Part shown: positions 27,581-58,743 of the stretch, piece after piece | Layout of the letters: the number at the start of each line of letters is the position of its first letter | Position numbering within the stretch: position 1 is the stretch's first letter | Assembly (NCBI GenBank): GCA_009829735.1 | Contig: CM020618.1 | Coordinates: 4,834,882 to 4,898,881, forward strand | DNA from: Pyropia yezoensis | Lineage: Eukaryota > Rhodophyta > Bangiophyceae > Bangiales > Bangiaceae | DNA: 64,000 nt | Reading direction: 5' to 3' | Translations under genes and position numbers: made by a program | The notes under the pieces: generated by a model | The model's input: the letters and a program-made list of their open reading frames with translations, nothing else | Database searches by the model: none | What the model was told of the DNA's origin: nothing

Positions 27581-27660
27581 GCAGCCGCGGCGGTGGCAGC
27601 CAGCAGGAAGGACGACGACGGTCGGCGGGAGGACGGGGTGCCCATATTGTCGACAAGCGC

Positions 27661-36686: not shown

Positions 36687-36831
36687 CCAATACCGCGCCT
36701 CGCGGGCGCTCCCATTGGGCAGGGCAGCGCGCTGCCCTGCCCAATACCGCGCCTCGCGGGCGCTCCCATTGGGCAGGGCAGCGCGCTGCCCTGCCCAATA
36801 CCGCGCCCCGCGGGCGCTCCCATTCGCGGCT
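36687..36831. repeat. Duplicate of the 54-bp minisatellite
   Basis: Same period, copy number and palindromes as at 27436-27580. Confidence 0.9.
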
Positions 36832-37744: not shown

Positions 37745-37802
37745 CTGGATATCGAGGTCTGGAGAACCGGGATATCGGGGTTCTGGAAACCTCGATATCC
37801 AG
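37745..37802. repeat. Hairpin-forming repeat in the transposon left end
   Basis: A perfect 14-bp inverted repeat (37745-37758 and 37789-37802, core CTGGATATCGAGGT) with related GATATC-centred units between. Absent from the right end, so the two ends are asymmetric. Confidence 0.65.
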
Positions 37803-37851
37803 TTCCTGGGAACCTCGACATCGAGGCTGAAGCGCCCTACAGGATGCCACA

Positions 37852-37887
37852 GCCCTAAGGGAACAGAACCGGAAGAAAACCGGGATT
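37852..37887 (+). repeat. Left subterminal inverted repeat of element I
   Basis: 36 bases matching the reverse complement of 58667-58702 at 33 positions. Contains GGGAACAGAACCGG and AAAACCGGGAT. A related unit follows at about 37921-37942. Confidence 0.8.
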
Positions 37888-38401
37888 TCTGTCATAGCCA
37901 ATGAAGCGCTCGGAGGGAAGAGAACCGGGAGAAAACCGGGATCGGCTGGACTTTGGTTGGCTCACAATCGCCCATGAAGGAGCCGACATACATAATATCC
38001 AGCCTTACAGACAAGAGCATTACAGCTGTTCCTCAGGCGTTCTTTCTTGCTGTTATTTCCTGTTGTATCTGTTTCTGCTCATTTCCGTACATGATTCCAT
38101 TTGTTGCTCATCCCGCCTACCTCTCACTCCAGCTGGTTGAGAAAATCCAGCTGCTCCTGCGCCAGGCGCTGCTCCTCCGTCACATCCGCGGGCGGTACCT
38201 CGCTGTCCCCCTCCGTGGTGCCACTGCCGCCACCCGCCTCGGTGCGGCCGCCGTTCACAGCTGCGGTGCTTGCCGCCCCATCACGCGCTCGTGCGCGGAC
38301 GCGCCGCGGCCGACGCGGCCGGCGGTGCATCAGCCCCCTCGATAAATGAGCACAGGCACCCCAGCTGAACTCGCACACGGCGAGGCGTGGCTTCCGCTCC
38401 T

Positions 38402-38406
38402 CTAGG
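38402..38406. repeat. Left target-site duplication CTAGG
   Basis: The five bases before the 5' LTR are identical to the five after the 3' LTR (54364-54368), as expected of Ty3/gypsy integration. Confidence 0.93.
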
Positions 38407-38875
38407 TGTGGCAGTATTGACCCCCAGGTAGGGGGGCAACACGTGCCATGCAAGGGGCGGCAGGCCACTAGCCTGATCCGTTCCTCCCCCTGCATTTGGG
38501 TCCATATTCCCTAAGTTTGGGATAGTTAGCTTAGTAGTAAATCCAACTTGGATTTGAGGGTTTTCTGCATTTATCGTCTTGAATTTTCGTGTGGCCCGGT
38601 GGGCAGGTGCTGGGGTGGGAGATTCTGGGTGGCGAGATTCTGAGTGGACCCTGGGGGGATAAGGGGAGGGACAGCGGGGCATGGCCCTGCGTCCCCGTCC
38701 CGACCAAGAAACTGTTGGACCACACACCATCCTCTTGTTTGTCCGTGGGGGGTTTGCCCCACAAAAGGGACAGAGTGTGTGCGACTTGCACTTCTTCCGG
38801 TTCCCCCGACACGGGAGGCAGCCCTTGCACACCGCCCCAACTTGGGTGCCGTGTGTGCATGTGGTTTTTGCCACA
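38407..38875 (+). repeat. 5' LTR
   Basis: 469 bases, TGTGGCA...TGCCACA, differing from the 3' LTR at three positions. Drives transcription of gag-pol by analogy with other LTR elements; no TATA box is obvious. Confidence 0.95.
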
Positions 38876-38894: not shown

Positions 38895-38994
38895 ACAGAG
38901 GTAAGCTTTACCTCCGGGTGCACCCGGGTGTCGGGGGCCCTCTGTCTCAGAGGAACGGTGGACTTGGACCGTGTCATACGGATCGTCAGCCAAC

Positions 38995-40941
38995 ATGGCT
39001 AGCTCGGACCCGCCGTCGTCCGGGGAGTACACGGGTGACGCACGTACTTCAGTGCCTTTGAATACTGGTGAGACACAGGTGGGTTTACCTGGGGTCGCAG
39101 AGGGACTAGAGGTCCCTCAAGCCAGCAGGACTGGAAGTGCGGGCGGGCAACAGGCCACCCCGACTCAGTCGGGAGTTCACTCGGGTGACACTTCTGATGT
39201 GGGTGGGCCGAAGTCTGGCCACCGTGTGGTATACTCAACGGGAACGTCCCAAGGGGTGAGGACTGTCCCCGCGGGTTCCACTCGGGTTGGAGCCAACTTT
39301 GGCTTGGAGCCGTCGCCAACTAGGCTTTCGGAGGACGGCGGACCTCCGTTGGTCGGCGATGGGCTCGCGCCCATGCCCCCGGTTGAGACCCCTGAGGAAC
39401 GTGGTTACCCCTCAGGTGGACTCCCGGAGGCGGACCGAGACTCAACTGGAGTCGTCAATCCACTCCTCGCGGAAACTGTCCGTCGGGAGGCGACCAATGT
39501 GTTGCGGCAGACTTTGCCGGACCTGGTGGTCACGATGACGAATACTATTCTGAATCAGATTGTGGCGAGTTTGCCAGATGGCCTCAATGTCCAAACCGGA
39601 TTGGGGCTTTCGAGCCCGCAGGCACAGGGGGAATCCCCCCTTACGCCTATCTCTGGTCGCCCCGAACTGGGGGCGACACCTGTGACTCCCAACGAGGGAG
39701 CCACACCATACTCGGTGGGGCGTACGCCCTTCATGGGGGAGTTCCCCCCGGAAACGCCGGCGGCTACACCAAGCGCGCCGCGCCGGACTACAGGCACTGA
39801 GGGTGAACTTACCCCAGTGCCACAGCGGCTGTTCCCTCAACGTGAGGTGCCGCCAAAGATCCAGGTAGCCAACCCGGTCTACCAGAGGATCTTTGACTGT
39901 GAGACCTACGCCCTCCACAACAAGTCGGTGGTGTATGGTCCTGACCAGGCCCGAGCCATGGGCCGTGCCAAGAAGAATGCACTTCATTCTTTTGGGCACA
40001 AAGCGGAGTGGGATGGAACCCCCCCCCTCCGTGTCTTTGAGTTCCTACGTCGTTTCACAAAAGCCTGTGACGACAATGCCATAAGTGAAGGCATGGCTTT
40101 TTACATGCTACAGGAGTTTACGAAGGGCGACCTACGGACAGAACTTATGTCCGTCATGCCCAGCTCCTCAAGTGGAGGCGCTGGGGAGGTGACGTCCTAT
40201 TTGGAGCTCGTCAACTGGTTGTTGAGAGCCATGGTTGATGAGGCAGCGTTGGCTTCTCAAGTCGAGGAGTTTACGCAAGCCCATCAGGAAGAGGCGGAGG
40301 ACGAGTTGTCCTTTGCGGAGCGAGTCCGTAAGCTCAACAATCTTTGTGGGTTTCTTCATCCACAAGCTGTGGTGAAGAGTCGGTTTGTGGAGGGACTCCA
40401 TTGGTCAGTCCGGATGGAGACCCGGGAGCATAACACTGCCCGGGCGACCCTGGCCGAGTTGGCCAGGTTCGCCTATCGCAGAGGCGAGGCCTACCGCAAG
40501 TTGCGGGAGGAACAACGCCAGGAGCGTCAGGCCGAGTTGGCCAAGGAACGGGAGGAGGCGCGCCAGGCCAGAGAGTTGAGAGAGGCACGCCGAATCCGCA
40601 AGGAGAGGGTGGTAGCTGCCGTGGGAACTTCCCAGGGTATCCCTTCGTCTTCCCCAGTTGGGAAGACCCCTCCCGGAACAGACCATCGGTGTTGGAACTG
40701 CAACTCCGATGGACACTGGGCATATGATTGCCCCAAGTTGAGTAAACGCATCCAACAACTTGTTAGGAATGCGAGTAAGAAGTCGGCTACGAACGAAGTA
40801 CGTTCACGCCGCGAGGGTGGGTCTCGACCGGTCGTCGCGGTCGCCACACCCTCGGCAGAGGAGGCGGACACGTCGTCCTCGGACTCGTCGTCTTCCTCCC
40901 CGCCCTCAGATTCGGACGCCAAGTCGGCGGGAAACGAATGA
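38995..40941 (+). CDS. gag: Gag polyprotein of the LTR retrotransposon
   Basis: 648 residues from ATG 38995. The first 270 are Gly/Pro/Thr/Ser-rich and look disordered. The retrotransposon gag domain follows (about 285-520), rich in helices, then a long Arg/Glu coiled-coil-like stretch (RKLREEQRQERQ... region). Next is a CCHC zinc knuckle (CWNCNSDGHWAYDC) and an acidic Ser-rich end. It should form the capsid-like particle and bind the RNA. In this copy the frame ends at TGA (40939-40941) right at the start of pol. In the second copy an extra A in the same A run fuses the two frames. Confidence 0.88.
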   Translation: MASSDPPSSGEYTGDARTSVPLNTGETQVGLPGVAEGLEVPQASRTGSAGGQQATPTQSGVHSGDTSDVGGPKSGHRVVYSTGTSQGVRTVPAGSTRVGANFGLEPSPTRLSEDGGPPLVGDGLAPMPPVETPEERGYPSGGLPEADRDSTGVVNPLLAETVRREATNVLRQTLPDLVVTMTNTILNQIVASLPDGLNVQTGLGLSSPQAQGESPLTPISGRPELGATPVTPNEGATPYSVGRTPFMGEFPPETPAATPSAPRRTTGTEGELTPVPQRLFPQREVPPKIQVANPVYQRIFDCETYALHNKSVVYGPDQARAMGRAKKNALHSFGHKAEWDGTPPLRVFEFLRRFTKACDDNAISEGMAFYMLQEFTKGDLRTELMSVMPSSSSGGAGEVTSYLELVNWLLRAMVDEAALASQVEEFTQAHQEEAEDELSFAERVRKLNNLCGFLHPQAVVKSRFVEGLHWSVRMETREHNTARATLAELARFAYRRGEAYRKLREEQRQERQAELAKEREEARQARELREARRIRKERVVAAVGTSQGIPSSSPVGKTPPGTDHRCWNCNSDGHWAYDCPKLSKRIQQLVRNASKKSATNEVRSRREGGSRPVVAVATPSAEEADTSSSDSSSSSPPSDSDAKSAGNE

Positions 40942-43900
40942 CCGTTGGGGCTGGTCGTCCGAAGCTCACAACGGCAGCCTCGGCCAAGTGGTCCAGGAGG
41001 ACGAACCAACCGTGCCGGATACTGCGGCGACCTAAGGGAGTCCGCCCACCTCGGGTAGGACTCCCCAAGAACGTAAACCCACGTCGGGTCATCGCGGTGC
41101 TGACGGGTGAGAACTTCCAGGTGGCTGGACGGGTGCAACTTGCCCCCGGCCGCGCCTGTTGTGCCCGTATCGTACTTGATACCGGGTCAGGAGCCTCCTT
41201 GATACGCAAGTCGCTATTACCAAAGGAGGTGAAGCTCCAACGCTGGAGGTCCAAAGCTGACCATATGATTGACATCAATGGTGGGGTACTTCCCATCGTT
41301 GGTGCCGTGACCCTACCAACTAGGTTGGGGACCCATGAGGTCGACGTGACCTATGGTGTAGTTGAGAATATATCGGTACCCCTGCTTCTGGGTACCCCTT
41401 ATGTTGTTACACAAGTGCCCTTGATTTGTGGCCCTGAGTACTGGGTCAAGTTGATGAATGGGGAGACTATCCCCATCCTTGGTAAGGGAAAGTCTGTGGC
41501 TCCTGTGACAGTTTCACAGTCGAAGCCTGTTTGCTCTGTGAGGGAAGAGTTTACTGCTACCCTGCGTCTAGCCCGTAAAGTCACGTTGCCCCCCAACTCG
41601 GTGGCGCACGTTGATGTTGTAACTGATTATACGGGGAACGGGTTGGTGCACCCTCACCCCCGTCTTGCTCGCAAGCACCAAGTGCATGTTGCCCTTGGCA
41701 CGATGGACTCCAAAGCCGGAGTCCCGTGGAGGATACAGGTGATGAACCTGAGCTCGTCGCCCCAGTACTTCAAGTCGGGAGCCAAGTTCGGCTATATCGA
41801 CCAACACGAGGGACCGGTAGTAGCGGTCACCCTCAACGCGGGCGCAAGTAGCGACCCGAAGTCCGGAAAGGAGAAGCATCAAGCCAAGTCGGCCGCCTCT
41901 CCTCGGCCCCATGTGAACATGGAGGGTGTCCCCCCAGGTTGAGGGTTCAAGTTGAACGCCTCTTGGACCAATATCACAAGTTGTGGGATGGTCAATTGGG
42001 ACTCATGAGAGCCACCCAACACCGGATCGAGTTGAAGCCCGGTGCACCCCCTATACGCCAACAACCGTATAGGGGAGGACCTCGTTCAAGGGCCCTCGTT
42101 AAGGAGCAAGTTGCTCGCATGGAGGCCCTCGATGTGATCGAGGCCAGCAACGCCGAGTGGGCGAGTCCGGTGGTTATCGTCCCCAAAGTTGATGGGACCC
42201 CCCGGTTTTGTATCGACTACTGTAAGCTCAACGAGAGCACGGTGAAGGACAGTTATCCCCTACCTAGGATGGACGACTGTCTGGACTCTCTGGGGAGGCA
42301 AACGTGTTCTCTACCCTGGACTGTAACGCGGGGTACTGGCAAATTCCCATTGCCCCGGAGGACAGGCATAAAACTACCTTTACCTGTCACTGTGGTACCT
42401 ACCAGTGCAAGCGCCTACCGTTTGGTCTGTGTAACGCGCCGGCAACTTTCCAGCGCGCTATGGACATGATTCTGGCCGGAGTACCGGTGGCAGATCTGTC
42501 TTGTGTACCTAGACGATATCATTGTGTTCTCCCGAAGTCTGGAGGAACACATTGGCCATCTTGGCCAGGTGTTCAAGCTACTTGCTGACGCCGGTGTGTC
42601 CCTGAAGGCGAGTAAGTGCCACCTCTTCACTCAAGAGGTGGAGTACTTGGGACATGTTGTCCGTCCGGGGCGTCTCAGTGTTAACGAGAAGAACTTGAGG
42701 GCCATTCGTAAGGCTCAGTGCCCCCGGACCCAGACCCAGATGAGGAGCTTCCTCGGGATGTGTAACGTGTACCGACGTTTCACCAAGGGCTTCGCCAAGG
42801 TGGCGAAGCCGTTGAATGAGCTAGTGAGCTCAACGCTACCGAAGAACCTGCCTCCCCCAAGTCGGGTGGAGCAGGAATCCTTTGAGACTCTTCGGGACCT
42901 TCTGCTGAAGCCCCCTATCGTGGCTATTCCCAGGTTGGGAGGCCACTACATCCTGGATGTGGACGCTAGCTACGACCAACTTGGTTGTGTGTTGCTTCAG
43001 CAGCAGCCGGACAAGGAGTACTTGCCGGTGGATACTTCAGTAAGGGGCTGAACTCGGCCGAGAAGAACTACGGAGTCACCGAGTTGGAAGGACTCGCAGT
43101 GGTGTGGGCGGTGACGTCACTTCGTCACTACCTAGAGGGTGAGAAGTTCCTCATCCGCTGTGACCACCGCGCGTTGCAGTTCATCTTTAAGACGGACTGT
43201 ACGAACACTCGTCTCAATCGGTGGAGGGTGCGACTGGCACCCTTCAACTTTGACATTGAGTACCGACCTGGCAGGCAACATGCCCTTGCCGACGGCCTCT
43301 CTCGGGTACCTACCGAGGGGCTGGACACTAACCCAGTCGATGAGGACATCCCCATCGTGGGGGTAGTCACGCGCTCGGGTCAGGCGTTGAACCCCGAGGC
43401 GCCAGGGAACAAGAAGTACTTGCCCCTGTCCCTGGACGAGGTGGTGAAGGCCCAGGCCGAGGATCCCTTCTGCAAGTCGCAGAGGGATACACTGGATACA
43501 GTGGTGGAGACGCGTTTCTTTCTGGGAGACGATGGCCTCCTCATGAGGAGGGGGGTATTCCAGGGGACCGAACAACTTGTCGTCCCCGCATCCCTCAAGG
43601 ACAGTATCCTTGAGAGGGAGCACAACGCTCCCACGGGTGGACACCTGGGGTCTAGTAAACTGTACCAGACCCTGAGGACCAGGTACTACTGGCCGTCCAT
43701 GGTGGTGGACATCTACAGTTGGGTGGCTGCCTGCACAAGTTGTGCACAGAACCGTCTGATGGAACGGCGGCCTAGTACGGCTATGCTATTGTTCCCGGCC
43801 AAGGAGCCCTTCGCCGCGTTGGCGATGGACATCCTTGGGCCACTGCCAGTGACCGAGGAGGGCAACCAGTACCTCCTGGTCATCTGTGACCGCTTCACGA

Positions 43901-44919
43901 AACTTACGCGAGCGATCCCACTGGCAGAGATCACGGCCATGTCGGTCGTGTCAGCCTTCCTAGATCACTGGGTTGCCGCGTATGGCATCCCGGATAGTAC
44001 ACTATCGGACAATGGACCGCAATTTGCGTCTGTACTGTTTCAGGGAGTGCTGGATATGTTGGGGGTTAAGGCAAACTATGCCACCCCTTACCACCCACAA
44101 ACTAATGGGCAGGTGGAGCGCTTCAACAAAGCTATTGTTAGGCAGCTGCGCCACTATGTGAGTGAGCACGTGAAGACGTGGGACCAATACATTTCTATTC
44201 TTACTACCGCCTACAATTCGCAGGTTCACTCATCTACCGGGGAAGTACCCCTCGCTTTTGTGACCCCCCGTCGTGTGCAGACTATTGCCGTGCGGCGGTC
44301 GCTCCCAACTAGGGAGGATGGTGGCAGTACGCCTACTCCTACTGAGAGTAAGGCGGAGTTCGCTGCTAGGCTTGAAAACCTCATCCCTAAAGTCAGGGCT
44401 GAGATGGACAAAGCACAAAAGCGCTACAAGCGTACCTTTGACAAAAAGGTGCGCAATGCTAAGCACGTCCCCGAGCAGGGTGACTGGGTGCTGGTACACT
44501 CGCACACCCCAACTGGGGGTAAGCTGTTATTCCAGACGAAGGGGCCGTACCAGGTCCTTCGTACTGATGGGCGGCGCTTCACCATCGAAAGTGACGATGG
44601 GGTCCGCACAGTGAACGGACAGGACGTGGTCAAAGTTGCACCACCGCCTGCAGGCGACCCAGCTTGGGCGCGTGCTTTGGAAGCGTGGCGCCTCCCCTCA
44701 CTGCCTGCGGCCAAACAGGGCCCGCAGGAGTACGTGTTCGATAAGTTCATCGACCACGGATGGGATGAAGACACTGACCGCCTCATGTTGAGGGTGCGTT
44801 GGTTTGGCTACAAAGCCAAGGACGATACGTGGGAGTATGTGGAGGACCTTCCCGCTGAGAAGGTCCGGGCGTACTGTGCCCGGAATGAGATAGACCCTAA
44901 CAGCCCTCCCTCAACATGA
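40938..44919 (+). pseudogene. pol: Pol of the retrotransposon, first copy, broken by four small frameshifts
   Basis: Overlaps the gag stop as ATGA. The aspartic protease DTGSGAS motif lies near 41178, reverse transcriptase with the YLDD box near 42506, RNase H about 42950-43300, integrase with an HHCC finger and a D, D, E triad about 43620-44160, and a chromodomain at about 44728-44900. Compared with the second copy, single bases are lost or gained near 41934, 42291, 42490 and 43028, all in or next to homopolymers. From 42985 to 44919 the frame is continuous. The breaks differ from those in the second copy, so they are probably sequence errors. Confidence 0.85.
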
Positions 44920-45030
44920 GGGAAGGCCGAGCAACGGTGCCAAGAGAGTGCTTCAAGTCGAAGTGGTACGCAGAGTGGCTTTTAACTACAGCCCTAACCC
45001 TCACACTCTCACAACACAGGCAGCTGCCAA

Positions 45031-46257
45031 CTAGGCACGCATGCTAGACTCCCCCACTCCACAGCCCTCGCCCTCACGTGGAGGCGAGCGGCGAGACCCA
45101 CGCCGATAACGGTCTCCACTCGTTGGAAGGGGCGGCGGCTCCAAGTCGGAACCGTCGCGCCCTTCACGGTCGCGCAAGTGGCGCCGACCGTAGCTACTCT
45201 TCTGCCTGGTCTTGCGAGCAAGTTTGCGACGCAGACGCTGGACAGACTCCGTCTCCGACGAGGTAGAGGACTCCGAGACGGAGTACGACAACTCGTCTTC
45301 CGATACGGAGGGAGAGCGCCGCGAGTGTCGGCGACGACGGCGAGGAGGCGAGTATGCCCGGCTCGCGCGACGTTTGCCACGCCCAAGTGGGGCTGGCTGG
45401 GGCATAATAGCCCCAATGCGAGCCAACTCGGCTGTCATAAACTCCGCCACCGATTCGCAACTCGCGGTCGCCACTGCAGTACGAACGCGCTCCTCAAGTT
45501 GAGGAGTCTCGGAACTTTGGAGGGTTGCGGTCGACGCGGCCAACCAGGAAATGGTGCGCACCAACGTGGTGATCATCATCTCTGAGGTTAGGCGTGGGCG
45601 GTAACACCAACTTGGGGTATACCGTCAGGAGGGTGGCCCCCAAGTTGGGGGACACCGGGGTGGATGACTCCACGGCCACGCTGATCGGGATGTTCCCGTG
45701 AGGCTGGAAAGGAACAGGAGGAAGCGGAGGGGCACGCCGAGGTGGCGGTACCGGGTATAACTGCGACCCCGACTTGGGGCCCCCGCAGTAGGTTGAGTCA
45801 TATGGTCATCATATGAGGGCACAGCCATAACTATGGGCTTGTCCGGGGGTGGCGCAGTGTGGCGATCCACCCCCGGGGCATACGGGTAGTCCCCGATGCC
45901 CAACCCCTCTCGTAGGACCACACGGCCGTCGTGAAGTTCACGAGCGACCCACACGAACTGGCGAAGTGCGCCATCGTCCTTGGGCCCACGAGTGGGGCGG
46001 CGCAACTTGTGCTCAATGCTCTCCCACTCGATAAACTTATGGAGCCGGAGCATCTCCTCAAGTAGAGTGAGTTGTCCTGATGAGCACCCCTCAGCAACTA
46101 GCTGAGGGGTGAGCTGTTCCAAACCTTGGATGAGCCGGAGGGGGAGATGCCAGAGCATCCCCCGCCGCTGAACACAGGATACCCAGGTCGACATGACCTC
46201 GAGGAGCCACTGGGTGGCCAACATGGCCCACACCAGGTGATCAGGGCCAGCCGTCAA
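45031..46257 (-). pseudogene. Antisense ORF of the retrotransposon, first copy, 3' part only
   Basis: Same sequence as the 3' part of the ORF at 51613-53556. Cut off at 46257 by the gap and shifted by a two-base deletion near 45592. See the complete copy for description. Confidence 0.7.
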
Positions 46258-46757
46258 NNNNNNNNNNNNNNNNNNNNNNNNNNNNNNNNNNNNNNNNNNN
46301 NNNNNNNNNNNNNNNNNNNNNNNNNNNNNNNNNNNNNNNNNNNNNNNNNNNNNNNNNNNNNNNNNNNNNNNNNNNNNNNNNNNNNNNNNNNNNNNNNNNN
46401 NNNNNNNNNNNNNNNNNNNNNNNNNNNNNNNNNNNNNNNNNNNNNNNNNNNNNNNNNNNNNNNNNNNNNNNNNNNNNNNNNNNNNNNNNNNNNNNNNNNN
46501 NNNNNNNNNNNNNNNNNNNNNNNNNNNNNNNNNNNNNNNNNNNNNNNNNNNNNNNNNNNNNNNNNNNNNNNNNNNNNNNNNNNNNNNNNNNNNNNNNNNN
46601 NNNNNNNNNNNNNNNNNNNNNNNNNNNNNNNNNNNNNNNNNNNNNNNNNNNNNNNNNNNNNNNNNNNNNNNNNNNNNNNNNNNNNNNNNNNNNNNNNNNN
46701 NNNNNNNNNNNNNNNNNNNNNNNNNNNNNNNNNNNNNNNNNNNNNNNNNNNNNNNNN
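46258..46757. other. Assembly gap of exactly 500 N
   Basis: A scaffold join inside the retrotransposon, flanked by repeated sequence on both sides. Confidence 0.98.
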
Positions 46758-47307
46758 GCGCTGGGGAGGTGACGTCCTATTTGGAGCTCGTCAACTGGTT
46801 GTTGAAGCCATGGTTGATGAGGCAGCGTTGGCTTTCAAAGTCGAGGAGTTTACGCAAGCCCATCAGAAAGAGGCGGAGGACGAGTTGTCCTTTGCGGAGC
46901 GAGTCCGTAAGCTCAACAATCTTTGTGGGTTTCTTCATCCACAAGCTGTGGTGAAGAGTCGGTTTGTGGAGGGACTCCATTGGTCAGTCCGGATGGAGAC
47001 CCGGGAGCATAACACTGCCCGGGCGACCCTGGCCGAGTTGGCTAGGTTCGCCTATCGCAGAGGCGAGGCCTACCGCAAGTTGCGGGAGGAACAACGCCAG
47101 GAGCGTCAGGCCGAGTTGGCCAAGGAACGGGAGGAGGCGCGCCAGGCCAGAGAGTTGAGAGAGGCACGCCGAATCCGCAAGGAGAGGGTGGTAGCTGCCG
47201 TGGGAACTTCCCAGGGTATCCCTTCGTCTTCCCCAGTTGGGAAGACCCCCTCCCGGAACAGACCATCGGTGTTGGAACTGCAACTCCGATGGACACTGGG
47301 CATATGA
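46758..47307 (+). pseudogene. gag: Gag fragment, second copy
   Basis: The 3' part of gag without its start. One base is missing near 46805 relative to the first copy, and one C is extra near 47250, which shifts the frame just before the zinc knuckle. Contig-end errors are the likely cause. Confidence 0.75.
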
Positions 47308-50300
47308 TTGCCCCAAGTTGAGTAAACGCATCCAACAACTTGTTAGGAATGCGAGTAAGAAGTCGGCTACGAACGAAGTACGTTCACGCCGCGAGGGTGG
47401 GTCTCGACCGGTCGTCGCGGTCGCCACACCCTCGGCAGAGGAGGCGGACACGTCGTCCTCGGACTCGTCGTCTTCCTCCCCGCCCTCAGATTCGGACGCC
47501 AAGTCGGCGGGAAAACGAATGACCGTTGGGGCTGGTCGTCCGAAGCTCACAACGGCAGCCTCGGCCAAGTGGTCCAGGAGGACGAACCAACCGTGCCGGA
47601 TACTGCGGCGACCTAAGGGAGTCCGCCCACCTCGGGTAGGACTCCCCAAGAACGTAAACCCACGTCGGGTCATCGCGGTGCTGACGGGTGAGAACTTCCA
47701 GGTGGCTGGACGGGTGCAACTTGCCCCCGGCCGCGCCTGTTGTGCCCGTATCGTACTTGATACCGGGTCAGGAGCCTCCTTGATACGCAAGTCGCTATTA
47801 CCAAAGGAGGTGAAGCTCCAACGCTGGAGGTCCAAAGCTGACCATATGATTGACATCAATGGTGGGGTACTTCCCATCGTTGGTGCCGTGACCCTACCAA
47901 CTAGGTTGGGGACCCATGAGGTCGACGTGACCTATGGTGTAGTTGAGAATATATCGGTACCCCTGCTTCTGGGTACCCCTTATGTTGTTACACAAGTGCC
48001 CTTGATTTGTGGCCCTGAGTACTGGGTCAAGTTGATGAATGGGGAGACTATCCCCATCCTTGGTAAGGGAAAGTCTGTGGCTCCTGTGACAGTTTCACAG
48101 TCGAAGCCTGTTTGCTCTGTGAGGGAAGAGTTTACTGCTACCCTGCGTCTAGCCCGTAAAGTCACGTTGCCCCCCAACTCGGTGGCGCACGTTGATGTTG
48201 TAACTGATTATACGGGGAACGGGTTGGTGCACCCTCACCCCCGTCTTGCTCGCAAGCACCAAGTGCATGTTGCCCTTGGCACGATGGACTCCAAAGCCGG
48301 AGTCCCGTGGAGGATACAGGTGATGAACCTGAGCTCGTCGCCCCAGTACTTCAAGTCGGGAGCCAAGTTCGGCTATATCGACCAACACGAGGGACCGGTA
48401 GTAGCGGTCACCCTCAACGCGGGCGCAAGTAGCGACCCGAAGTCCGGAAAGGAGAAGCATCAAGCCAAGTCGGCCGCCTCTCCTCGGCCCCATGTGAACA
48501 TGGAGGGTGTCCCCCCCAGGTTGAGGGTTCAAGTTGAACGCCTCTTGGACCAATATCACAAGTTGTGGGATGGTCAATTGGGACTCATGAGAGCCACCCA
48601 ACACCGGATCGAGTTGAAGCCCGGTGCACCCCCTATACGCCAACAACCGTATAGGGGAGGACCTCGTTCAAGGGCCCTCGTTAAGGAGCAAGTTGCTCGC
48701 ATGGAGGCCCTCGATGTGATCGAGGCCAGCAACGCCGAGTGGGCGAGTCCGGTGGTTATCGTCCCCAAAGTTGATGGGACCCCCCGGTTTTGTATCGACT
48801 ACTGTAAGCTCAACGAGAGCACGGTGAAGGACAGTTATCCCCTACCTAGGATGGACGACTGTCTGGACTCTCTGGGGGAGGCAAACGTGTTCTCTACCCT
48901 GGACTGTAACGCGGGGTACTGGCAAATTCCCATTGCCCCGGAGGACAGGCATAAAACTACCTTTACCTGTCACTGTGGTACCTACCAGTGCAAGCGCCTA
49001 CCGTTTGGTCTGTGTAACGCGCCGGCAACTTTCCAGCGCGCTATGGACATGATTCTGGCCGGAGTACGGTGGCAGATCTGTCTTGTGTACCTAGACGATA
49101 TCATTGTGTTCTCCCGAAGTCTGGAGGAACACATTGGCCATCTTGGCCAGGTGTTCAAGCTACTTGCTGACGCCGGTGTGTCCCTGAAGGCGAGTAAGTG
49201 CCACCTCTTCACTCAAGAGGTGGAGTACTTGGGACATGTTGTCCGTCCGGGGCGTCTCAGTGTTAACGAGAAGAACTTGAGGGCCATTCGTAAGGCTCAG
49301 TGCCCCCGGACCCAGACCCAGATGAGGAGCTTCCTCGGGATGTGTAACGTGTACCGACGTTTCACCAAGGGCTTCGCCAAGGTGGCGAAGCCGTTGAATG
49401 AGCTAGTGAGCTCAACGCTACCGAAGAACCTGCCTCCCCCAAGTCGGGTGGAGCAGGAATCCTTTGAGACTCTTCGGGACCTTCTGCTGAAGCCCCCTAT
49501 CGTGGCTATTCCCAGGTTGGGAGGCCACTACATCCTGGATGTGGACGCTAGCTACGACCAACTTGGTTGTGTGTTGCTTCAGCAGCAGCCGGACAAGGAG
49601 TACTTGCCGGTGGGATACTTCAGTAAGGGGCTGAACTCGGCCGAGAAGAACTACGGAGTCACCGAGTTGGAAGGACTCGCAGTGGTGTGGGCGGTGACGT
49701 CACTTCGTCACTACCTAGAGGGTGAGAAGTTCCTCATCCGCTGTGACCACCGCGCGTTGCAGTTCATCTTTAAGACGGACTGTACGAACACTCGTCTCAA
49801 TCGGTGGAGGGTGCGACTGGCACCCTTCAACTTTGACATTGAGTACCGACCTGGCAGGCAACATGCCCTTGCCGACGGCCTCTCTCGGGTACCTACCGAG
49901 GGGCTGGACACTAACCCAGTCGATGAGGACATCCCCATCGTGGGGGTAGTCACGCGCTCGGGTCAGGCGTTGAACCCCGAGGCGCCAGGGAACAAGAAGT
50001 ACTTGCCCCTGTCCCTGGACGAGGTGGTGAAGGCCCAGGCCGAGGATCCCTTCTGCAAGTCGCAGAGGGATACACTGGATACAGTGGTGGAGACGCGTTT
50101 CTTTCTGGGAGACGATGGCCTCCTCATGAGGAGGGGGGTATTCCAAGGGCTGAACAACTTGTCGTCCCCGCATCCCTCAAGGACAGTATCCTTGAGAGGG
50201 AGCACAACGCTCCCACGGGTGGACACCTGGGGTCTAGTAAACTGTACCAGACCCTGAGGACCAGGTACTACTGGCCGTCCATGGTGGTGGACATCTACAG

Positions 50301-51501
50301 TTGGGTGGCTGCCTGCACAAGTTGTGCACAGAACCGTCTGATGGAACGGCAGCCTAGTACGGCTATGCTATTGTTCCCGGCCAAGGAGCCCTTCGCCGCG
50401 TTGGCGATGGACATCCTTGGGCCACTGCCAGTGACCGAGGAGGGCAACCAGTACCTCCTGGTCATCTGTGACCGCTTCACGAAACTTACGCGAGCGATCC
50501 CACTGGCAGAGATCACGGCCATGTCGGTCGTGTCAGCCTTCCTAGATCACTGGGTTGCCGCGTATGGCATCCCGGATAGTACACTATCGGACAATGGACC
50601 GCAATTTGCGTCTGTACTGTTTCAGGGAGTGCTGGATATGTTGGGGGTTAAGGCAAACTATGCCACCCCTTACCACCCACAAACTAATGGGCAGGTGGAG
50701 CGCTTCAACAAAGCTATTGTTAGGCAGCTGCGCCACTATGTGAGTGAGCACGTGAAGACGTGGGACCAATACATTTCTATTCTTACTACCGCCTACAATT
50801 CGCAGGTTCACTCATCTACCGGGGAAGTACCCCTCGCTTTTGTGACCCCCCGTCGTGTGCAGACTATTGCCGTGCGGCGGTCGCTCCCAACTAGGGAGGA
50901 TGGTGGCAGTACGCCTACTCCTACTGAGAGTAAGGCGGAGTTCGCTGCTAGGCTTGAAAACCTCATCCCTAAAGTCAGGGCTGAGATGGACAAAGCACAA
51001 AAGCGCTACAAGCGTACCTTTGACAAAAAGGTGCGCAATGCTAAGCACGTCCCCGAGCAGGGTGACTGGGTGCTGGTACACTCGCACACCCCAACTGGGG
51101 GTAAGCTGTTATTCCAGACGAAGGGGCCGTACCAGGTCCTTCGTACTGATGGGCGGCGCTTCACCATCGAAAGTGACGATGGGGTCCGCACAGTGAACGG
51201 ACAGGACGTGGTCAAAGTTGCACCACCGCCTGCAGGCGACCCAGCTTGGGCGCGTGCTTTGGAAGCGTGGCGCCTCCCCTCACTGCCTGCGGCCAAACAG
51301 GGCCCGCAGGAGTACGTGTTCGATAAGTTCATCGACCACGGATGGGATGAAGACACTGACCGCCTCATGTTGAGGGTGCGTTGGTTTGGCTACAAAGCCA
51401 AGGACGATACGTGGGAGTATGTGGAGGACCTTCCCGCTGAGAAGGTCCGGGCGTACTGTGCCCGGAATGAGATAGACCCTAACAGCCCTCCCTCAACATG
51501 A
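47237..51501 (+). pseudogene. pol: Gag zinc knuckle plus pol, second copy, nearly intact
   Basis: One open frame runs from the gag zinc knuckle through protease (DTGSGAS near 47759), reverse transcriptase (YLDD near 49088) and RNase H to about 50150. There a two-base difference shifts the frame before the integrase finger. A second frame then carries integrase (AMDILGPLP; LSDNGPQF; NGQVERFN) and the chromodomain to the stop at 51501. Here gag and pol are fused because the A run near 47512 is one base longer than in the first copy. Together the two copies imply a functional-length polyprotein gene. Confidence 0.88.
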
Positions 51502-51612
51502 GGGAAGGCCGAGCAACGGTGCCAAGAGAGTGCTTCAAGTCGAAGTGGTACGCAGAGTGGCTTTTAACTACAGCCCTAACCCTCACACTCTCACAACACA
51601 GGCAGCTGCCAA

Positions 51613-53556
51613 CTAGGCACGCATGCTAGACTCCCCCACTCCACAGCCCTCGCCCTCACGTGGAGGCGAGCGGCGAGACCCACGCCGATAACGGTCTCCA
51701 CTCGTTGGAAGGGGCGGCGGCTCCAAGTCGGAACCGTCGCGCCCTTCACGGTCGCGCAAGTGGCGCCGACCGTAGCTACTCTTCTGCCTGGTCTTGCGAG
51801 CAAGTTTGCGACGCAGACGCTGGACAGACTCCGTCTCCGACGAGGTAGAGGACTCCGAGACGGAGTACGACAACTCGTCTTCCGATACGGAGGGAGAGCG
51901 CCGCGAGTGTCGGCGACGACGGCGAGGAGGCGAGTATGCCCGGCTCGCGCGACGTTTGCCACGCCCAAGTGGGGCTGGCTGGGGCATAATAGCCCCAATG
52001 CGAGCCAACTCGGCTGTCATAAACTCCGCCACCGATTCGCAACTCGCGGTCGCCACTGCAGTACGAACGCGCTCCTCAAGTTGAGGAGTCTCGGAACTTT
52101 GGAGGGTTGCGGTCGACGCGGCCAACCAGGAAATGGTGCGCACCAACGTGGTGATCATCATCTCTGAGGTTAGAGGCGTGGGCGGTAACACCAACTTGGG
52201 GTATACCGTCAGGAGGGTGGCCCCCAAGTTGGGGGACACCGGGGTGGATGACTCCACGGCCACGCTGATCGGGATGTTCCCGTGAGGCTGGAAAGGAACA
52301 GGAGGAAGCGGAGGGGCACGCCGAGGTGGCGGTACCCGGGTATAACTGCGACCCCGACTTGGGGCCCCCGCAGTAGGTTGAGTCATATGGTCATCATATG
52401 AGGGCACAGCCATAACTATGGGCTTGTCCGGGGGTGGCGCAGTGTGGCGATCCACCCCCGGGGCATACGGGTAGTCCCCGATGCCCAACCCCTCTCGTAG
52501 GACCACACGGCCGTCGTGAAGTTCACGAGCGACCCACACGAACTGGCGAAGTGCGCCATCGTCCTTGGGCCCACGAGTGGGGCGGCGCAACTTGTGCTCA
52601 ATGCTCTCCCACTCGATAAACTTATGGAGCCGGAGCATCTCCTCAAGTAGAGTGAGTTGTCCTGATGAGCACCCCTCAGCAACTAGCTGAGGGGTGAGCT
52701 GTTCCAAACCTTGGATGAGCCGGAGGGGGAGATGCCAGAGCATCCCCCGCCGCTGAACACAGGATACCCAGGTCGACATGACCTCGAGGAGCCACTGGGT
52801 GGCCAACATGGCCCACACCAGGTGATCAGGGCCAGCCGTCAAAATGACGGAGCCGAAGTGGTCAAGCAACCGTGGCAGCAACGCCGGGAACCCGTAGGGG
52901 ACCTCAACTTGAGGCCACCACTCGGGCTTCTTCGGATCGTACTGCTCCTTACTGGCAGCAGACTGTTGAGGAAACTCAAGTTGAGCCGAGGTCACCAAGT
53001 AGGGACCTCGCCGGAAGTCTTTTTCCATCCGCACATCAAAGTGATGAGTGTGCGGATCGGCCTCGTGGAGGTACGGGGGGCGAGTTGCCACCGCGTCCCA
53101 AGTAAAGGTCGGCAAGTCGCCGGGACCCGGGATAGTTCCCCCGCGGTCCACCATGGCCTTGGCACGCTGAACGTCCTCAACCTCCTCATCGTCCAGGAAG
53201 GCAAACTGGTCCGTCCTGAAGCCGGCAGGGAACCCGACCCTACGGGGATACTTCTCCCGTAGGCGGTCCCATACCCGACCCATCGCTGCGCCAAGTCGGC
53301 CACAGCGAAGAACAGTCAACCCCTCCTCATAGAGAGGCCAAGCGGGGTAAAACCACCGCCCCAAGGCCTCACGCGGGACAACTTGTCCCGCCTCCGGGGG
53401 AGACCCCGCCGTCAACCCAAAGCCGGGTGACGCGGGAGTCCCATCCCCCGGAGCGATCGCGGAGCCCCCGCCGGAAGTCCCGGCGGGTGCTGCACCGTAG
53501 GTGGTGTCCTCCATACGCTCATCTAGAGAGTCCGTCTCCACTCCCGGGGTCGCCAT
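51613..53556 (-). CDS. Antisense ORF inside the retrotransposon, 647 residues, unknown family
   Basis: Lies between pol (stop 51501, plus strand) and the 3' LTR, on the opposite strand and convergent with pol. ATG 53556 opens the frame, which has no stop for 647 codons; it is open further upstream, to 53727, without another ATG. Residues 60-385 look globular and helical: an RWFYPAWPLYEEGL segment, a long Trp/Leu-rich region about 230-320, and HKLRRPTRGPKDDG. A Pro-rich linker (about 400-430) and a second helical part (about 460-525) follow. The tail (528-640) is very basic with RS-type repeats (RRRRRHSRRSPSVS) and a Ser/Glu patch, suggesting a nuclear or RNA-binding role. No transmembrane helix and no known domain. 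The start is only about 340 bases from the 3' LTR, so an antisense promoter in or near that LTR could drive it. Extra antisense ORFs at this position are known in some plant Ty3/gypsy elements; I see no link to them. Confidence 0.7.
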   Translation of the reverse strand: MATPGVETDSLDERMEDTTYGAAPAGTSGGGSAIAPGDGTPASPGFGLTAGSPPEAGQVVPREALGRWFYPAWPLYEEGLTVLRCGRLGAAMGRVWDRLREKYPRRVGFPAGFRTDQFAFLDDEEVEDVQRAKAMVDRGGTIPGPGDLPTFTWDAVATRPPYLHEADPHTHHFDVRMEKDFRRGPYLVTSAQLEFPQQSAASKEQYDPKKPEWWPQVEVPYGFPALLPRLLDHFGSVILTAGPDHLVWAMLATQWLLEVMSTWVSCVQRRGMLWHLPLRLIQGLEQLTPQLVAEGCSSGQLTLLEEMLRLHKFIEWESIEHKLRRPTRGPKDDGALRQFVWVARELHDGRVVLREGLGIGDYPYAPGVDRHTAPPPDKPIVMAVPSYDDHMTQPTAGAPSRGRSYTRVPPPRRAPPLPPVPFQPHGNIPISVAVESSTPVSPNLGATLLTVYPKLVLPPTPLTSEMMITTLVRTISWLAASTATLQSSETPQLEERVRTAVATASCESVAEFMTAELARIGAIMPQPAPLGRGKRRASRAYSPPRRRRRHSRRSPSVSEDELSYSVSESSTSSETESVQRLRRKLARKTRQKSSYGRRHLRDREGRDGSDLEPPPLPTSGDRYRRGSRRSPPREGEGCGVGESSMRA

Positions 53557-53881
53557 GGCTCTCCCCAAGTTGGGGAGAGACGCTCTGGCTATCGCGGCAC
53601 GAGACCCGCCTCGAGTTGAGGGGGACTCGGATCGTGGGTATACGGGTGGCCTCCCCAGCGTGGGGCGGCCCAGTGGAAGGTGAAAGGGAGGTGGTGGTGA
53701 TGGTGAAGTGTGAACTGAGGAGAGCAAGCTGCCGAGTGGGCAAGCTTGAGGAGAGGGGCGGTCAACGTGACCGCCTCCACATCCACGTTACGTACTCGAT
53801 GGGGGACAGCAAGTCGCGCCCCCAACGCCGAGACGTGCGTTTACGCACCCCCTCACAGGGCCGACCGGGTCGGTCGGAACT

Positions 53882-53894
53882 GAGGAGAGGGGAG
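53882..53894 (+). promoter_or_regulatory. Polypurine tract
   Basis: GAGGAGAGGGGAG lies directly against the 3' LTR, the standard primer site for plus-strand DNA synthesis. Confidence 0.85.
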
Positions 53895-54363
53895 TGTGGC
53901 AGTATTGACCCCCAGGTAGGGGGGCAACACGTGCCATGCAAGGGGCGGCAGGCCACTAGCCTGATCCGTTCCTCCCCCTGCGTTTGGGTCCATATTCCCT
54001 AAGTTTGGGATAGTTAGCTTAGTAGTAAATCCAACTTGGATTTGAGGGTTTTCTGCATTTATCGTCTTGAATTTTCGTGTGGCCCGGTGGGCAGGTGCTG
54101 GGGTGGGAGATTCTGGGTAGCGAGATTCTGAGTGGACCCTGGGGGGATAAGGGGAGGGACAGCGGGGCTTGGCCCTGCGTCCCCGTCCCGACCAAGAAAC
54201 TGTTGGACCACACACCATCCTCTTGTTTGTCCGTGGGGGGTTTGCCCCACAAAAGGGACAGAGTGTGTGCGACTTGCACTTCTTCCGGTTCCCCCGACAC
54301 GGGAGGCAGCCCTTGCACACCGCCCCAACTTGGGTGCCGTGTGTGCATGTGGTTTTTGCCACA
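53895..54363 (+). repeat. 3' LTR
   Basis: 469 bases, three substitutions from the 5' LTR. Followed by the CTAGG target duplication. Confidence 0.95.
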
Positions 54364-54368
54364 CTAGG
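54364..54368. repeat. Right target-site duplication CTAGG
   Basis: Identical to 38402-38406. On the minus strand it falls within the Tyr-Leu-Glu codons of the accessory ORF of element I. Confidence 0.93.
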
Positions 54369-55493: not shown

Positions 55494-58232
55494 TTACTCC
55501 GAACTAAACACCTCCCGAGTGTACAAGACGACGTGCCGCCCCCTCATAAACAAAGTACCAACCGCGTCGTCGATGGATAAGACGTCGACGTAGCGCATGG
55601 AACCTCCCAAACTGGTGAAGCACTCCGTATCGCGACGCTTCTCGGGAAGTCCAAACGCTCCGTGGCGGTCCACCGAAGACTTGACGCACTCTATATACGC
55701 AAAGGCCCTCGGGGCACTGTCTACGAGAAGAACTGCGAAGTGGTGCACAGCGCCGTACACGTTGGCAGGAACACGTCGCACTCCTCGTCCACGACCAGCC
55801 GCTTGTTCCACGTGCGAACTCACACGCACGAGATGGTCGCGTCGACGGTCAGCGGCCTCATCCACCACGGAGACGGTCCCGCCGCATTGGCCATTTGACA
55901 GCCGAATGCGAAAGTATTTCTTGGCATAAATTTCAGCAGGTACTTGGGTGACGCCTTCTAGGCCCAGAACTGCCTTCATGTGAAGAAGCTCTTGGCCAAT
56001 CAGCGGAGCCACAGTTTGTCGAGGAGGAAGAAGGTCCACTTTCGGCTGCTGGGACAGCGTGAATGTGCCACGTGGATCTTGATTTTCACGTCGACGAGGT
56101 TTCCCAGTTGCTGCAACCCAGGCATCCGGTACGCGCGCCTCAGCAAAACTGGTGACGAGCTCCGCCGAGTATTTGGATGACACCGCCGTTGTCAGCGCCG
56201 CGTATGGAAAACGACGTGACCTGATGAGTCGCGTAAGAGTTCCGATCAGGCGCTCCGCTGGAAACTGCCAGTAAGACCAGGCAGGTCCGCACGAGCGCAA
56301 GTTTTGAGTGACGTCCAGGAGAGCCACTGTTGTCGGTCGGCAGAGCCTCAGGCGTTTCTCCTTGCCGGCGTACACATGCTTGAAGTAGGCTTCGCAAAAG
56401 CGCTTCAGGAGCCTGTCTGCCGTGCTCAGCTCGTACTCCGTCACTGCACTTGGCTTGAAAAGTAGCCGGCCAGCTTGACAAAGTAGCATGAACATCTTGA
56501 AATAATCCTCCGGAATTCGCTCCGCCAGGACAACTTCTCCGACGCTCAGAAGGAAGTACATCCAATCGACCGCCTTGTACGAGCCGGAATGCTTGTAAAT
56601 GTCCCGCAGAGAGCGAGCTTGGCTGAGCGGTACGGTCGGACGACCAGCTGCGATTTCCGCCCCGATGGCTGCACAATCCGACTTGGAAAGGATCCACGGC
56701 TGGTCCTCTCCGAGCTTGTCGTTCTCCCCAGAAAACAGCTCCCACAGCTTCGGCACGACGTTGCTGAGGAATAAGTGCATGGGGTCGTGCGGTACGAGAT
56801 GGGGGCCGAGACCCCAAAGATAATTAAGCGCGGGGTAGCGAGCCCTGTCTCCGGGGCTCGGGCAGAAGAACAGCGAGTACCCCTTGAAGCCCTCCTTTTG
56901 AGCCAAGGAGCGAACGGCAGTCTTGCTCTGACCTGCCGCTCTGGCGTCCTCGACTCTGGCCACTCTCGTGGCGATGCTCCCTGCACTCCGACGGAGAGTC
57001 GAGTCACCTTGCAGGTCGAACCGCGGCCGCTTCGAGGGTGGGGGGTCGTCAGGTGCGTACGGCGGGTAGTAGTAGCGGTGCTTGTCGCGCACGCCGGAGA
57101 ACACACGGAACCTGCTGGGGTGCTCCCCGTTTCCTCCTATCGCATTGACGATCTTATCCGCCCCGGGCATGTCTGCCGTAAACTGCACCACGAAGGCGTG
57201 GACCGTCTGCTGCTCAGGGACCCCGGCGACCGTGATGCCACTCACGCCCGTAGCCAGGACGTTCAGCTCGTCTGCGACGGGGTGCATAAATGACTCCAGG
57301 TCGACAGGTTGACCTGGTCCGGGAGTAATTCCCAGGATCAATTGGGAGACGACTTGTACTCTTGCGCTGGGGTCGACGTTGAGGATGGTGGCAATAATTG
57401 GCCAACCTTCGAAACCTCGCTGCTTCCATGCTTGAAAACCGTCCGTCGAGATGCTGAGCGCGATACACGTGTTCGTTGAAAAGTAGCCCTTGTTTACCAG
57501 GTTTCGGAACGCGGTGCCGTCAAACCAATCGCGAAGGTCTTTGGGCGCGCCCGCGGCCGCAGCTTGGCGAGCCTCCTTCATAGCCGTGACCATACCGGCG
57601 CCAATGTCTGCGTCAGCCAGCATCATTCTCAGCCAGGGAAGCAAAGGCCAGTACGTGGCTTTCTTGGCGGCTCGCCCATCTGAGCGGTAGCGAGAGGTTT
57701 TGCATACGTCGCACTGCGTGAGTGCCTCGCGCGAAGCGGTGAAAGCCACGCAGCCATTGCGGCAGCAGTCAACCTCTTTCGTCTGCAAGTCGACGCTGGC
57801 CTCGATCATGGCGCTCAGCTGGTGCGGGGTGCGACAAGTTCCTGACGTGCGGCGTTGCAGCAGGTAGTCCTCAGCCGCTTCTCGGCACAGGCAGTGATGA
57901 ACTATGAAGGCGTATGCGACGTAGTCGTCAACATTGTCTTGAAAAACACTGGGAGTAACGCATACGCCGTTTGGACGAACGCTGACCGGCTGCGGAGGCG
58001 GGGCCGACGACACGTCATCTTGTCCCCCACCGCCAGCTGGGCCAGCGGCCGCGTCTGGGCCCTCTGGCACTGGCGCCTCGACCGCGGCTGCAGCCGCAGC
58101 CGTGGCTGGGCGGCGCCGCCGACCGCGCCACAGCCGCTGGTGCTCAAACCACGTTGATCGCGGCACCACAGAAGAGGCCCCTGATACTCCCCCGCGGCAT
58201 ATAGGGCACCAGCACTCCCGCATATCGGCCAT
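55494..58232 (-). CDS. Tnp2-like (CACTA/EnSpm superfamily) transposase, element I
   Basis: 912 residues from ATG 58232, intact. The open frame extends upstream without ATG, and the chosen start opens directly on a CWCPIC zinc-binding motif (C7, C9, C12, then a His). A second cysteine cluster (C156, C157, C161, C174, C177) precedes YWPLLPWLRMM, the usual entry to the Tnp2 catalytic region. The core shows STDGFQAW (first acidic residue D264), GWPIIATILN, the ITPGPGQPVDLESF block (302-315) and TADMPGADK (second acidic residue D354). A helical region and a C-terminal EIYAKKYFR domain follow. These match the D-G, WP-NL, PGP and D-P signatures of Tnp2/Plavaka-type DDE transposases, which cut and paste CACTA-like elements. 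It is about 55% larger than minimal cores. The sister copy in element II aligns along its whole length. Confidence 0.9.
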   Translation of the reverse strand: MADMRECWCPICRGGVSGASSVVPRSTWFEHQRLWRGRRRRPATAAAAAAVEAPVPEGPDAAAGPAGGGGQDDVSSAPPPQPVSVRPNGVCVTPSVFQDNVDDYVAYAFIVHHCLCREAAEDYLLQRRTSGTCRTPHQLSAMIEASVDLQTKEVDCCRNGCVAFTASREALTQCDVCKTSRYRSDGRAAKKATYWPLLPWLRMMLADADIGAGMVTAMKEARQAAAAGAPKDLRDWFDGTAFRNLVNKGYFSTNTCIALSISTDGFQAWKQRGFEGWPIIATILNVDPSARVQVVSQLILGITPGPGQPVDLESFMHPVADELNVLATGVSGITVAGVPEQQTVHAFVVQFTADMPGADKIVNAIGGNGEHPSRFRVFSGVRDKHRYYYPPYAPDDPPPSKRPRFDLQGDSTLRRSAGSIATRVARVEDARAAGQSKTAVRSLAQKEGFKGYSLFFCPSPGDRARYPALNYLWGLGPHLVPHDPMHLFLSNVVPKLWELFSGENDKLGEDQPWILSKSDCAAIGAEIAAGRPTVPLSQARSLRDIYKHSGSYKAVDWMYFLLSVGEVVLAERIPEDYFKMFMLLCQAGRLLFKPSAVTEYELSTADRLLKRFCEAYFKHVYAGKEKRLRLCRPTTVALLDVTQNLRSCGPAWSYWQFPAERLIGTLTRLIRSRRFPYAALTTAVSSKYSAELVTSFAEARVPDAWVAATGKPRRRENQDPRGTFTLSQQPKVDLLPPRQTVAPLIGQELLHMKAVLGLEGVTQVPAEIYAKKYFRIRLSNGQCGGTVSVVDEAADRRRDHLVRVSSHVEQAAGRGRGVRRVPANVYGAVHHFAVLLVDSAPRAFAYIECVKSSVDRHGAFGLPEKRRDTECFTSLGGSMRYVDVLSIDDAVGTLFMRGRHVVLYTREVFSSE

Positions 58233-58743
58233 GGCGGCGGAAGAAGGGGGTAACCACGCAAGGAGAAGTGGCCCTGAGGGGGATGCCGCCGGTTGGTTGG
58301 GGGAAGAACGGGGGATGTAGCGGGAGCCGATGGTCTGGGGCTGGTGGTGGGGGCTTGTGGGGACGGCTTGGTGGTCGCAGTGAAGTCGGAGGGGGCAGAC
58401 CAAGATGCCATTAAATAGTGCTCTGGATCCGAGATGCGAAGGGTGGCACCCAAAGGTCGACCCCACTGTGGACGAACATGCCGTCCTGTAGTATGCCGCC
58501 AGGGGCTTCGGGGATCTTCTGGAAGCCTGCTCTGGAATGTTCCAGGGGGCCAATCAGAGCCCCGCTTGGATTTGCTGTGCTGCTGGAACAGTCAAGAAGC
58601 GTCTCGAAATACGCATCCTGAGGGGGGGGGAAGGGGGATCCCGGATTTATCCCGGTTCCGGGATGGAATCCCGGTTTTATCCCGGTTCTGTTCCCATAGG
58701 GCAGGCGCAGAAGCGCAAACCTAGATAATGAGACTTTGAATGG
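58233..58743 (-). promoter_or_regulatory. Right terminal region of element I with CCGGGAT subterminal repeats
   Basis: Upstream region of the transposase gene. At 58640-58702 it holds several CCGGGAT/ATCCCGG units in alternating orientation, plus the 36-bp inverted match to the left end. In CACTA elements such subterminal repeats bind the element-encoded proteins. Confidence 0.6.
58667..58702 (-). repeat. Right subterminal inverted repeat of element I
   Basis: Reverse complement of 37852-37887 at 33 of 36 positions. Confidence 0.8.

Follow-up and report, generated by a model that had tools for sequence, protein, structure and literature searches.

Antisense open reading frames (ORFs) between pol and the 3' LTR, termed aORF-3R, are described for plant Ty3/gypsy elements, including gene23 of maize Grande and the antisense ORFs of rice RIRE2 and Silene Retand, in passages of two papers (PMC7264820; PMC11963269). 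The antisense protein of maize Grande is reported in one of these passages to be nuclear, and its transcript to arise from its own promoter (PMC7264820). Retand is classed as a lineage outside the chromoviruses, with hosts among eudicots and Liliopsida; some of its members are non-autonomous, antisense coding regions are kept in all clusters, and the antisense ORF carries a TRP28 (Transposase_28) domain in 97% of clusters, according to the relevant passages of PMC11963269. Where they take up the function of antisense ORFs in LTR elements, the two papers call it unknown, and they liken such ORFs to retroviral antisense and accessory genes, with mention of the antisense genes of HTLV (PMC7264820; PMC11963269, including its discussion). 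An antisense ORF is also noted in a non-plant LTR element, Boty of Botrytis cinerea, whose likeness to the present case is by description only (passage in PMC7264820).

Retroviral antisense genes, in which a protein is made from an antisense transcript begun near the 3' LTR, belong to a different virus class, and here too the likeness is by description. The antisense gene of HTLV is named HBZ.

The antisense ORF considered here (aORF) lies in a stretch of 64,000 nucleotides from the red alga Pyropia yezoensis, referred to as the window. It resembles plant aORF-3R, as characterized in the cited passages, in its place between pol and the 3' LTR, its orientation antisense to gag-pol, its length and its many copies, and it resembles Retand in that a non-autonomous form retains the antisense ORF region. 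It also shows the aORF-3R feature of being conserved similarly to other proteins of the element: fixed differences between subfamilies are 28 synonymous to 2 non-synonymous in aORF and 19 to 3 in the integrase frame. Unlike Retand as described there, this element has a weak integrase chromodomain and a red algal host, and aORF has no Pfam match. Identity with the Retand ORF was rejected; no TRP28 domain was found in a Pfam scan at E-values up to 1, which returned only DUF641 at 0.29, below its cut-off.

The sequence-only reading that preceded this analysis had stated that some plant Ty3/gypsy elements carry antisense ORFs at the same place, and the cited passages bear this out (PMC7264820; PMC11963269). 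It had also put the ORF forward as a candidate for something undescribed, which holds in part: the kind of antisense ORF is known, and what differs is the red algal host, the probable element type and the unmatched protein. No antisense ORF in a red algal element was found described in the titles and abstract openings searched, mostly outside the subscription literature, which is weak evidence that aORF is previously undescribed. A red alga is far from the flowering plants and the selection test presented below is clear, so the protein is a concrete object to test.

The element and its antisense frame

The features of the element are listed in window coordinates.

38402..38406, no strand: left copy of the target-site duplication CTAGG (sequence)
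38407..38875, plus strand: 5' LTR, TGTGGCA...TGCCACA (repeat comparison, sequence)
38905..40938, plus strand: gag open frame of 678 codons between stops, its CCHC knuckle lying toward the end (zf-CCHC match scored on the second assembled side)
45031..46257, minus strand: truncated duplicate of aORF, cut by the gap and split over two frames, a probable assembly artefact (ORF list and self-comparison)
46258..46757, no strand: gap of 500 N with the same sequence on either side
47237..50257, plus strand: pol on the second assembled side, with reverse transcriptase (RT) and RNase H (Pfam RVT_1 5.8e-34, RT_RNaseH 1.3e-30) and a weak aspartic protease match (Asp_protease_2 0.038)
50281..51501, plus strand: end of pol, with integrase core (rve 3.3e-12) and a weak C-terminal chromodomain (Chromo 2.4e-4)
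51613..53556, minus strand: aORF, 647 codons, ATG at 53556 and stop ending at 51613 (composition, constraint map, low-confidence helices)
53557..53894, minus strand: stretch from the aORF ATG to the 3' LTR, a probable antisense leader/promoter region (sequence differences with the single B copy L050)
53882..53894, plus strand: polypurine tract-like GAGGAGAGGGGAG, 5' of the 3' LTR (read from sequence)
53895..54363, plus strand: 3' LTR, with 3 differences from the 5' LTR in 470 aligned bases
54364..54368, no strand: right copy of the target-site duplication CTAGG (sequence)

These features very probably represent one Ty3/gypsy element of about 9.4 kb that is partly shown twice, the apparent tandem being an assembly artefact. 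Positions 40178-46257 recur as 46758-52842 at 99.7% identity on the two flanks of the 500-N gap, and 14.8 kb of the 17.0-kb contig between this gap and a second one duplicate adjoining sequence, as expected of a redundant contig; combined with outer LTRs that have a common CTAGG flank, this makes a single element very probable. A true tandem pair, with sequence hidden in the gap, is very improbable in view of the redundant contig. On the first assembled side pol runs in one frame from RNase H to the chromodomain (42985-44919) and aORF is split; on the second side pol is split and out of frame, and aORF is whole. These differences may be either sequencing errors or real. The chromodomain match (E 2.4e-4, residues 348-392 of 406) scores 21.4 bits, under the curated cut-off of 25.1.

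Some further observations concern the surrounding assembly. At a second 500-N gap (28743-29242), positions 19971-28742 recur as 29243-37997 at 99.2%, probably another unmerged overlap. One genomic copy, L011 (C1:954327-960270), is 99.8% identical to the window copy, has 364 Ns in its stretch and is possibly the same insertion assembled twice. Beside the element, a 1019-codon frame on the minus strand (55494-58553) matches Transposase_21 weakly (4.8e-6, 26.4 bits, cut-off 28.6), and a 95-bp piece of this frame recurs at 61696 at 73%.

aORF is antisense to gag-pol and is bounded by the pol stop at 51501 on one side and the 3' LTR on the other; a 111-bp spacer separates the pol stop from the aORF stop. 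The open frame extends upstream of the ATG, reaching 704 codons when counted from a TTG at 53727 and 724 between stops, and these 724 codons are the longest open frame in 51502-53893. Among 2000 dinucleotide-preserving shuffles of this interval, read in six frames, the longest open frame had a median of 194 codons, a 99th percentile of 339 and a maximum of 437; a chance origin of aORF is thus excluded. Sense-strand frames within aORF are short (135 and 183 aa). The predicted protein has a Pro/Gly-rich, acidic start (residues 1-60), a Pro-rich stretch read from sequence (residues 408-425) and a basic, Arg/Ser-rich tail (residues about 530-647), with Arg and Lys making up 25% of residues 520-647. 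The sequence-only reading had given the same coordinates and strand for a 647-codon ORF in the interval between pol and the 3' LTR, and its further points, that the frame is hard to explain by chance, that the sense strand has only short frames and that the tail is basic and Ser/Arg-rich, agree with these figures.

Selection on the antisense frame

Copies were sought in the P. yezoensis genome (107.5 Mb, 11 contigs), and those analysed were sampled mostly through aORF itself. In the DNA search, all 40 matches scored, out of 1521 first-look candidates, cover aORF end to end at 98-100%. In the protein search, all 68 matches scored, out of 3537, are full length and free of stops, with an open frame of 723-779, and 40 of the 68 have a common bit score of 1457; these matches were picked by protein score. 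One of them was retrieved for analysis along with the 39 DNA matches other than the window. Among the window copy and 39 copies chosen by DNA, aORF is intact in 24 of 40, interrupted by a stop in 13 and altered by a deletion of 1-2 bases in 3. Two copies are rearranged elsewhere: in L019 (1-1363) the 5' end of the element is inverted before the pol part in a palindrome-like arrangement, and L024 (1-1088) has an internal deletion that joins the equivalent of window positions 39109-40196 to about 43106 onward, with the aORF region kept.

If aORF matters only in copies that move on, private mutations are expected to be near neutral and widely shared ones synonymous. Across 41 copies, compared against the majority background, singletons comprise 147 synonymous, 251 missense and 8 stop variants (pN/pS 0.70), variants in 2-3 copies 50, 49 and 2 (0.40), and variants in at least 4 copies 15, 1 and 0 (0.03). 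When variants present in at least 2 of the 41 copies are read in all six frames, pN/pS is 0.32 in the aORF frame versus 1.34, 2.34, 1.48, 0.54 and 1.72 in the other five, each of which takes 13 to 24 stops.

The test was repeated between subfamilies with the real codons of the window. Subfamily A was represented by 36 copies (the window and 35 others) and subfamily B by three (L050, L051, and L052); the near-duplicate L011 and the short copies L023, L029, and L047 were left out, and a difference was taken as fixed or nearly fixed if the B base occurred in at most 10% of A. By this measure aORF has 28 synonymous and 2 non-synonymous differences, in a B sample that is small and was reached through top protein scores, a route biased toward few amino-acid changes. 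Within A, singletons comprise 136 synonymous, 242 missense and 7 stop variants, and shared variants 47, 41 and 2. The fixed ratio of 28:2 departs from that of private mutations (Fisher p = 3e-10) and from the neutral fraction of the 41-copy test (binomial 8e-14). Purifying selection acts on aORF, and of the six frames only on this one; the sequence-only reading had proposed a comparison of genomic copies as the check on the frame, and purifying selection is what that comparison finds.

For the integrase ORF the fixed differences are 19 synonymous and 3 non-synonymous (two B copies). Mean pairwise pN/pS among full-form A copies, with private mutations counted, is 0.41 for aORF and 0.27 for the integrase ORF; aORF is about as constrained as integrase on fixed changes and less so when private mutations are included. 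The 111-bp spacer between pol and aORF has 1 fixed difference (0.9%) versus 30 of 1944 sites (1.5%) in aORF, so low divergence is not unique to aORF. In the LTR 9 of 469 sites differ, and in the stretch from the ATG to the LTR 14 of 337, each counted with one B copy only.

The constraint appears to set in at the ATG. In the same frame, the 57 codons preceding it (53557-53727) have 5 synonymous and 7 non-synonymous differences and show no constraint, a ratio distinct from that of the aORF body (p = 0.0008); this stretch is covered by a single B copy (L050), whose private changes are counted too. The start of aORF is likely the ATG at 53556, and a real start farther upstream is not supported by the 5:7 ratio in the extension.

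Two older, diverged copies, L053 and L054, came not from protein scores but from a search with an 11-residue motif in which the third bases of the family itself were disallowed (4 sites, control 0; 2 of the 4 retrieved). At the DNA level they match the window at 92.7% and 94.4% identity, each is broken by single-base indels, and in both aORF is antisense beside a pol end. Their differences from the window fall 28/18/94 (L053) and 24/15/69 (L054) at the three codon positions, and pN/pS among L051, L053, and L054 is 0.18-0.27, higher than the ratios of B copies met by protein score. When the three non-independent comparisons among L051, L053, and L054 are added together, residues 251-350 show 24 synonymous differences and no non-synonymous one; private changes in this core do occur in single A copies. 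Other parts are relaxed, with pN/pS of 0.59 at residues 51-100 and of 0.55 and 0.68 within residues 451-550, and the tail is intermediate (0.35 at residues 551-600, then 0.23). The degree of constraint in the tail weakens the case for a sequence-specific role; a tail acting by charge only would look like this. The selection signal thus concerns one frame, apparently from one ATG, in which nearly every fixed change is synonymous, and it includes a core that the diverged copies retain without change.

The short form and the sister loci

Four copies (L023, L029, L047, and L050) are units of 5.0 kb with the order LTR, 5' piece to early gag, pre-RT piece, integrase tail and chromodomain, aORF, LTR. 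This form is without most of gag, RT and the integrase core, and it retains the aORF region. The LTR pairs differ at 1, 2, 0 and 0 positions, respectively, and three of the four copies have perfect 5-bp flanking duplications, from which it follows that the short form itself moved recently. An open 377-codon sense frame spans the deletion junction in all four (about 1753-2887), joining the pre-RT piece to the integrase tail and chromodomain, and aORF is intact in two (L023 and L050). With a query running from the junction through aORF, all 40 matches scored cover the full span at 95-100%, starting at base 1 in 38 cases and at base 2 or 4 in the other two; when short copies were found by the junction alone, 27 of 40 were among the 40 matches spanning aORF.

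L050 and L023 differ in aORF at 7, 3 and 43 sites of the three codon positions. Selection acting among the short copies may account for this bias. Exchange with full copies would also explain it well, since L051 and L052, whose integrase stretch is uninterrupted, match the 3' part of L050 at 99.35% identity. Most differences in the integrase remnant of the short copies likewise fall on codon positions one and three. Whether proteins of this kind work in cis or in trans could be studied in the short form as a natural experiment.

Related motifs occur at loci outside the family. A second core motif, searched with the family's bases excluded, gave 9 loci (control 0), with residues changed in all nine as translated by eye; for another core motif there was a single site (control 0). 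Exact matches to a pattern built around M[LF]WHL[PS]PRLIQ number 74 (control 0); the family departs from this pattern at its seventh codon (Leu 278). The motif letters were inspected at 15 of the 74 (10 + 5). A third motif, LHKFIEWE, has 55 matches not expected from the family's usual codons (control 0); four of the 55 lie exactly 38 codons after one of the 74 sites, which is the spacing in the window aORF, and the other 51 do not. Judged by these motifs, at least one more distant set of elements, a sister family or subfamily, carries an aORF homologue.

Five of the 74 sister sites lie within 3 kb of the top 150 chromodomain sites (C1:7137200, C1:32213347, C2:16994664, C2:17401630, and C3:2921024), versus a random mean of 0.6 and maximum of 4 in 1000 trials. 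Four of these close pairs are on the same strand and one is on opposite strands; in four of the five the sister motif is 1.6-2.6 kb downstream of a same-strand chromodomain, two of the spacings being 1642 and 1647. A diverged site, C2:24103406, is upstream of a chromodomain on the opposite strand. The orientation of the homologue may therefore differ between families, as far as these few pairs suggest. Relatives of the pol-end motif DTWEYVEDLPA with other codons number 180 sites (control 0). Of these 180, the 100 listed have none of the 74 sister sites within 6 kb, and the pol family concerned may lack the gene or have another version of it.

Role of the aORF product

aORF is almost certainly a real protein-coding gene of the element. 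The reading preferred here, which is probably correct, is that of an accessory gene of a high-copy Ty3/gypsy element whose product would be a nuclear, nucleic-acid-binding helper protein. As to its parts, a nuclear protein that binds nucleic acid is somewhat favoured, and the chances are about even that the product promotes rather than restrains the element. Antisense transcription would start from a promoter in the 3' LTR or in the roughly 340 bp between the LTR and the ATG; the conserved middle part may mediate a specific contact; and the Arg/Ser tail would carry the protein to the nucleus and bind RNA or chromatin there. The protein might in this way help the RNA or DNA of the element through nuclear steps, such as export, packaging, import or targeting. 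On this anatomy of basic tail, conserved middle part and acidic start, a nuclear accessory protein made from an antisense transcript would be the best-supported reading; maize Grande, as described in the passages cited at the outset, offers a reported parallel.

No relative was found in Pfam, NCBIfam, PHROGs, PDB or plasmids, and pattern stretches in viral contigs (4) and in GTDB contigs (96) include none confirmed as an aORF homologue. AlphaFold2 models of the whole protein (25 copies, mean pLDDT 31.6) and of residues 205-400 (10 rows, pLDDT 42.6) are too weak for a fold search; both draw helices at about 223-324, which is a hint only. The sequence-only reading had suggested a regulator of the element, a nuclear transport factor or a captured host gene, and the domain and homologue searches, empty in the collections covered, do not choose among these. 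SR-type RNA-binding proteins combine an RRM with extended RS repeats. aORF was rejected as a protein of this type, with no RRM matched in the Pfam scan and only 5 RS/SR dipeptides in residues 520-647.

That the protein restrains or modulates the element, through copy-number control or latency, with less harmful elements persisting, is possible but unlikely. Restraint would give the same anatomy and selection pattern as a helper would, and the retroviral antisense and accessory genes with which such ORFs are compared in passages of PMC7264820 and PMC11963269 lend it some support. It is at odds with subfamily B, which seems to have been amplified with aORF intact: aORF is identical between two copies that lie on separate contigs and whose integrase stretch is uninterrupted, and one bit score is common to 40 of the 68 protein matches. 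A restraining gene would also be expected to be lost in bursts, by argument rather than by test.

Hardly different in probability is a proposal about origin, compatible with any function, in which aORF is a captured host gene, or one from another element that inserted in reverse orientation and was retained. The 74 further loci with a related motif, four of them with a second motif exactly 38 codons on, are in keeping with capture, and the four same-strand pairs among the five close to a chromodomain might mean that other orientations exist elsewhere. Against capture, relatives lie at many loci, and no single-copy host gene was seen among the motif matches.

Counter-defence, in which the protein would suppress host silencing by small RNA or chromatin marks, is less likely again. 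It would fit the presence of aORF in both full and short forms, as well as the basic tail, but no motif links aORF to any known family in Pfam or PDB. Similarly doubtful is a broader picture in which aORF, as part of a new protein family in red algal elements, serves as a portable accessory module; the 5-kb form would then be a satellite that keeps aORF and the 377-codon frame since both products act in cis, and sister families may carry the module on the other strand.

Finally, a chance frame in GC-rich DNA, or conservation owed to an RNA or sense-strand function, has a negligible probability: a GC content of about 63% lowers the frequency of stops and the shuffles do yield 194-codon frames at the median, but the best of them reaches 437 codons versus 724, and the constraint follows the codons of the aORF frame only.
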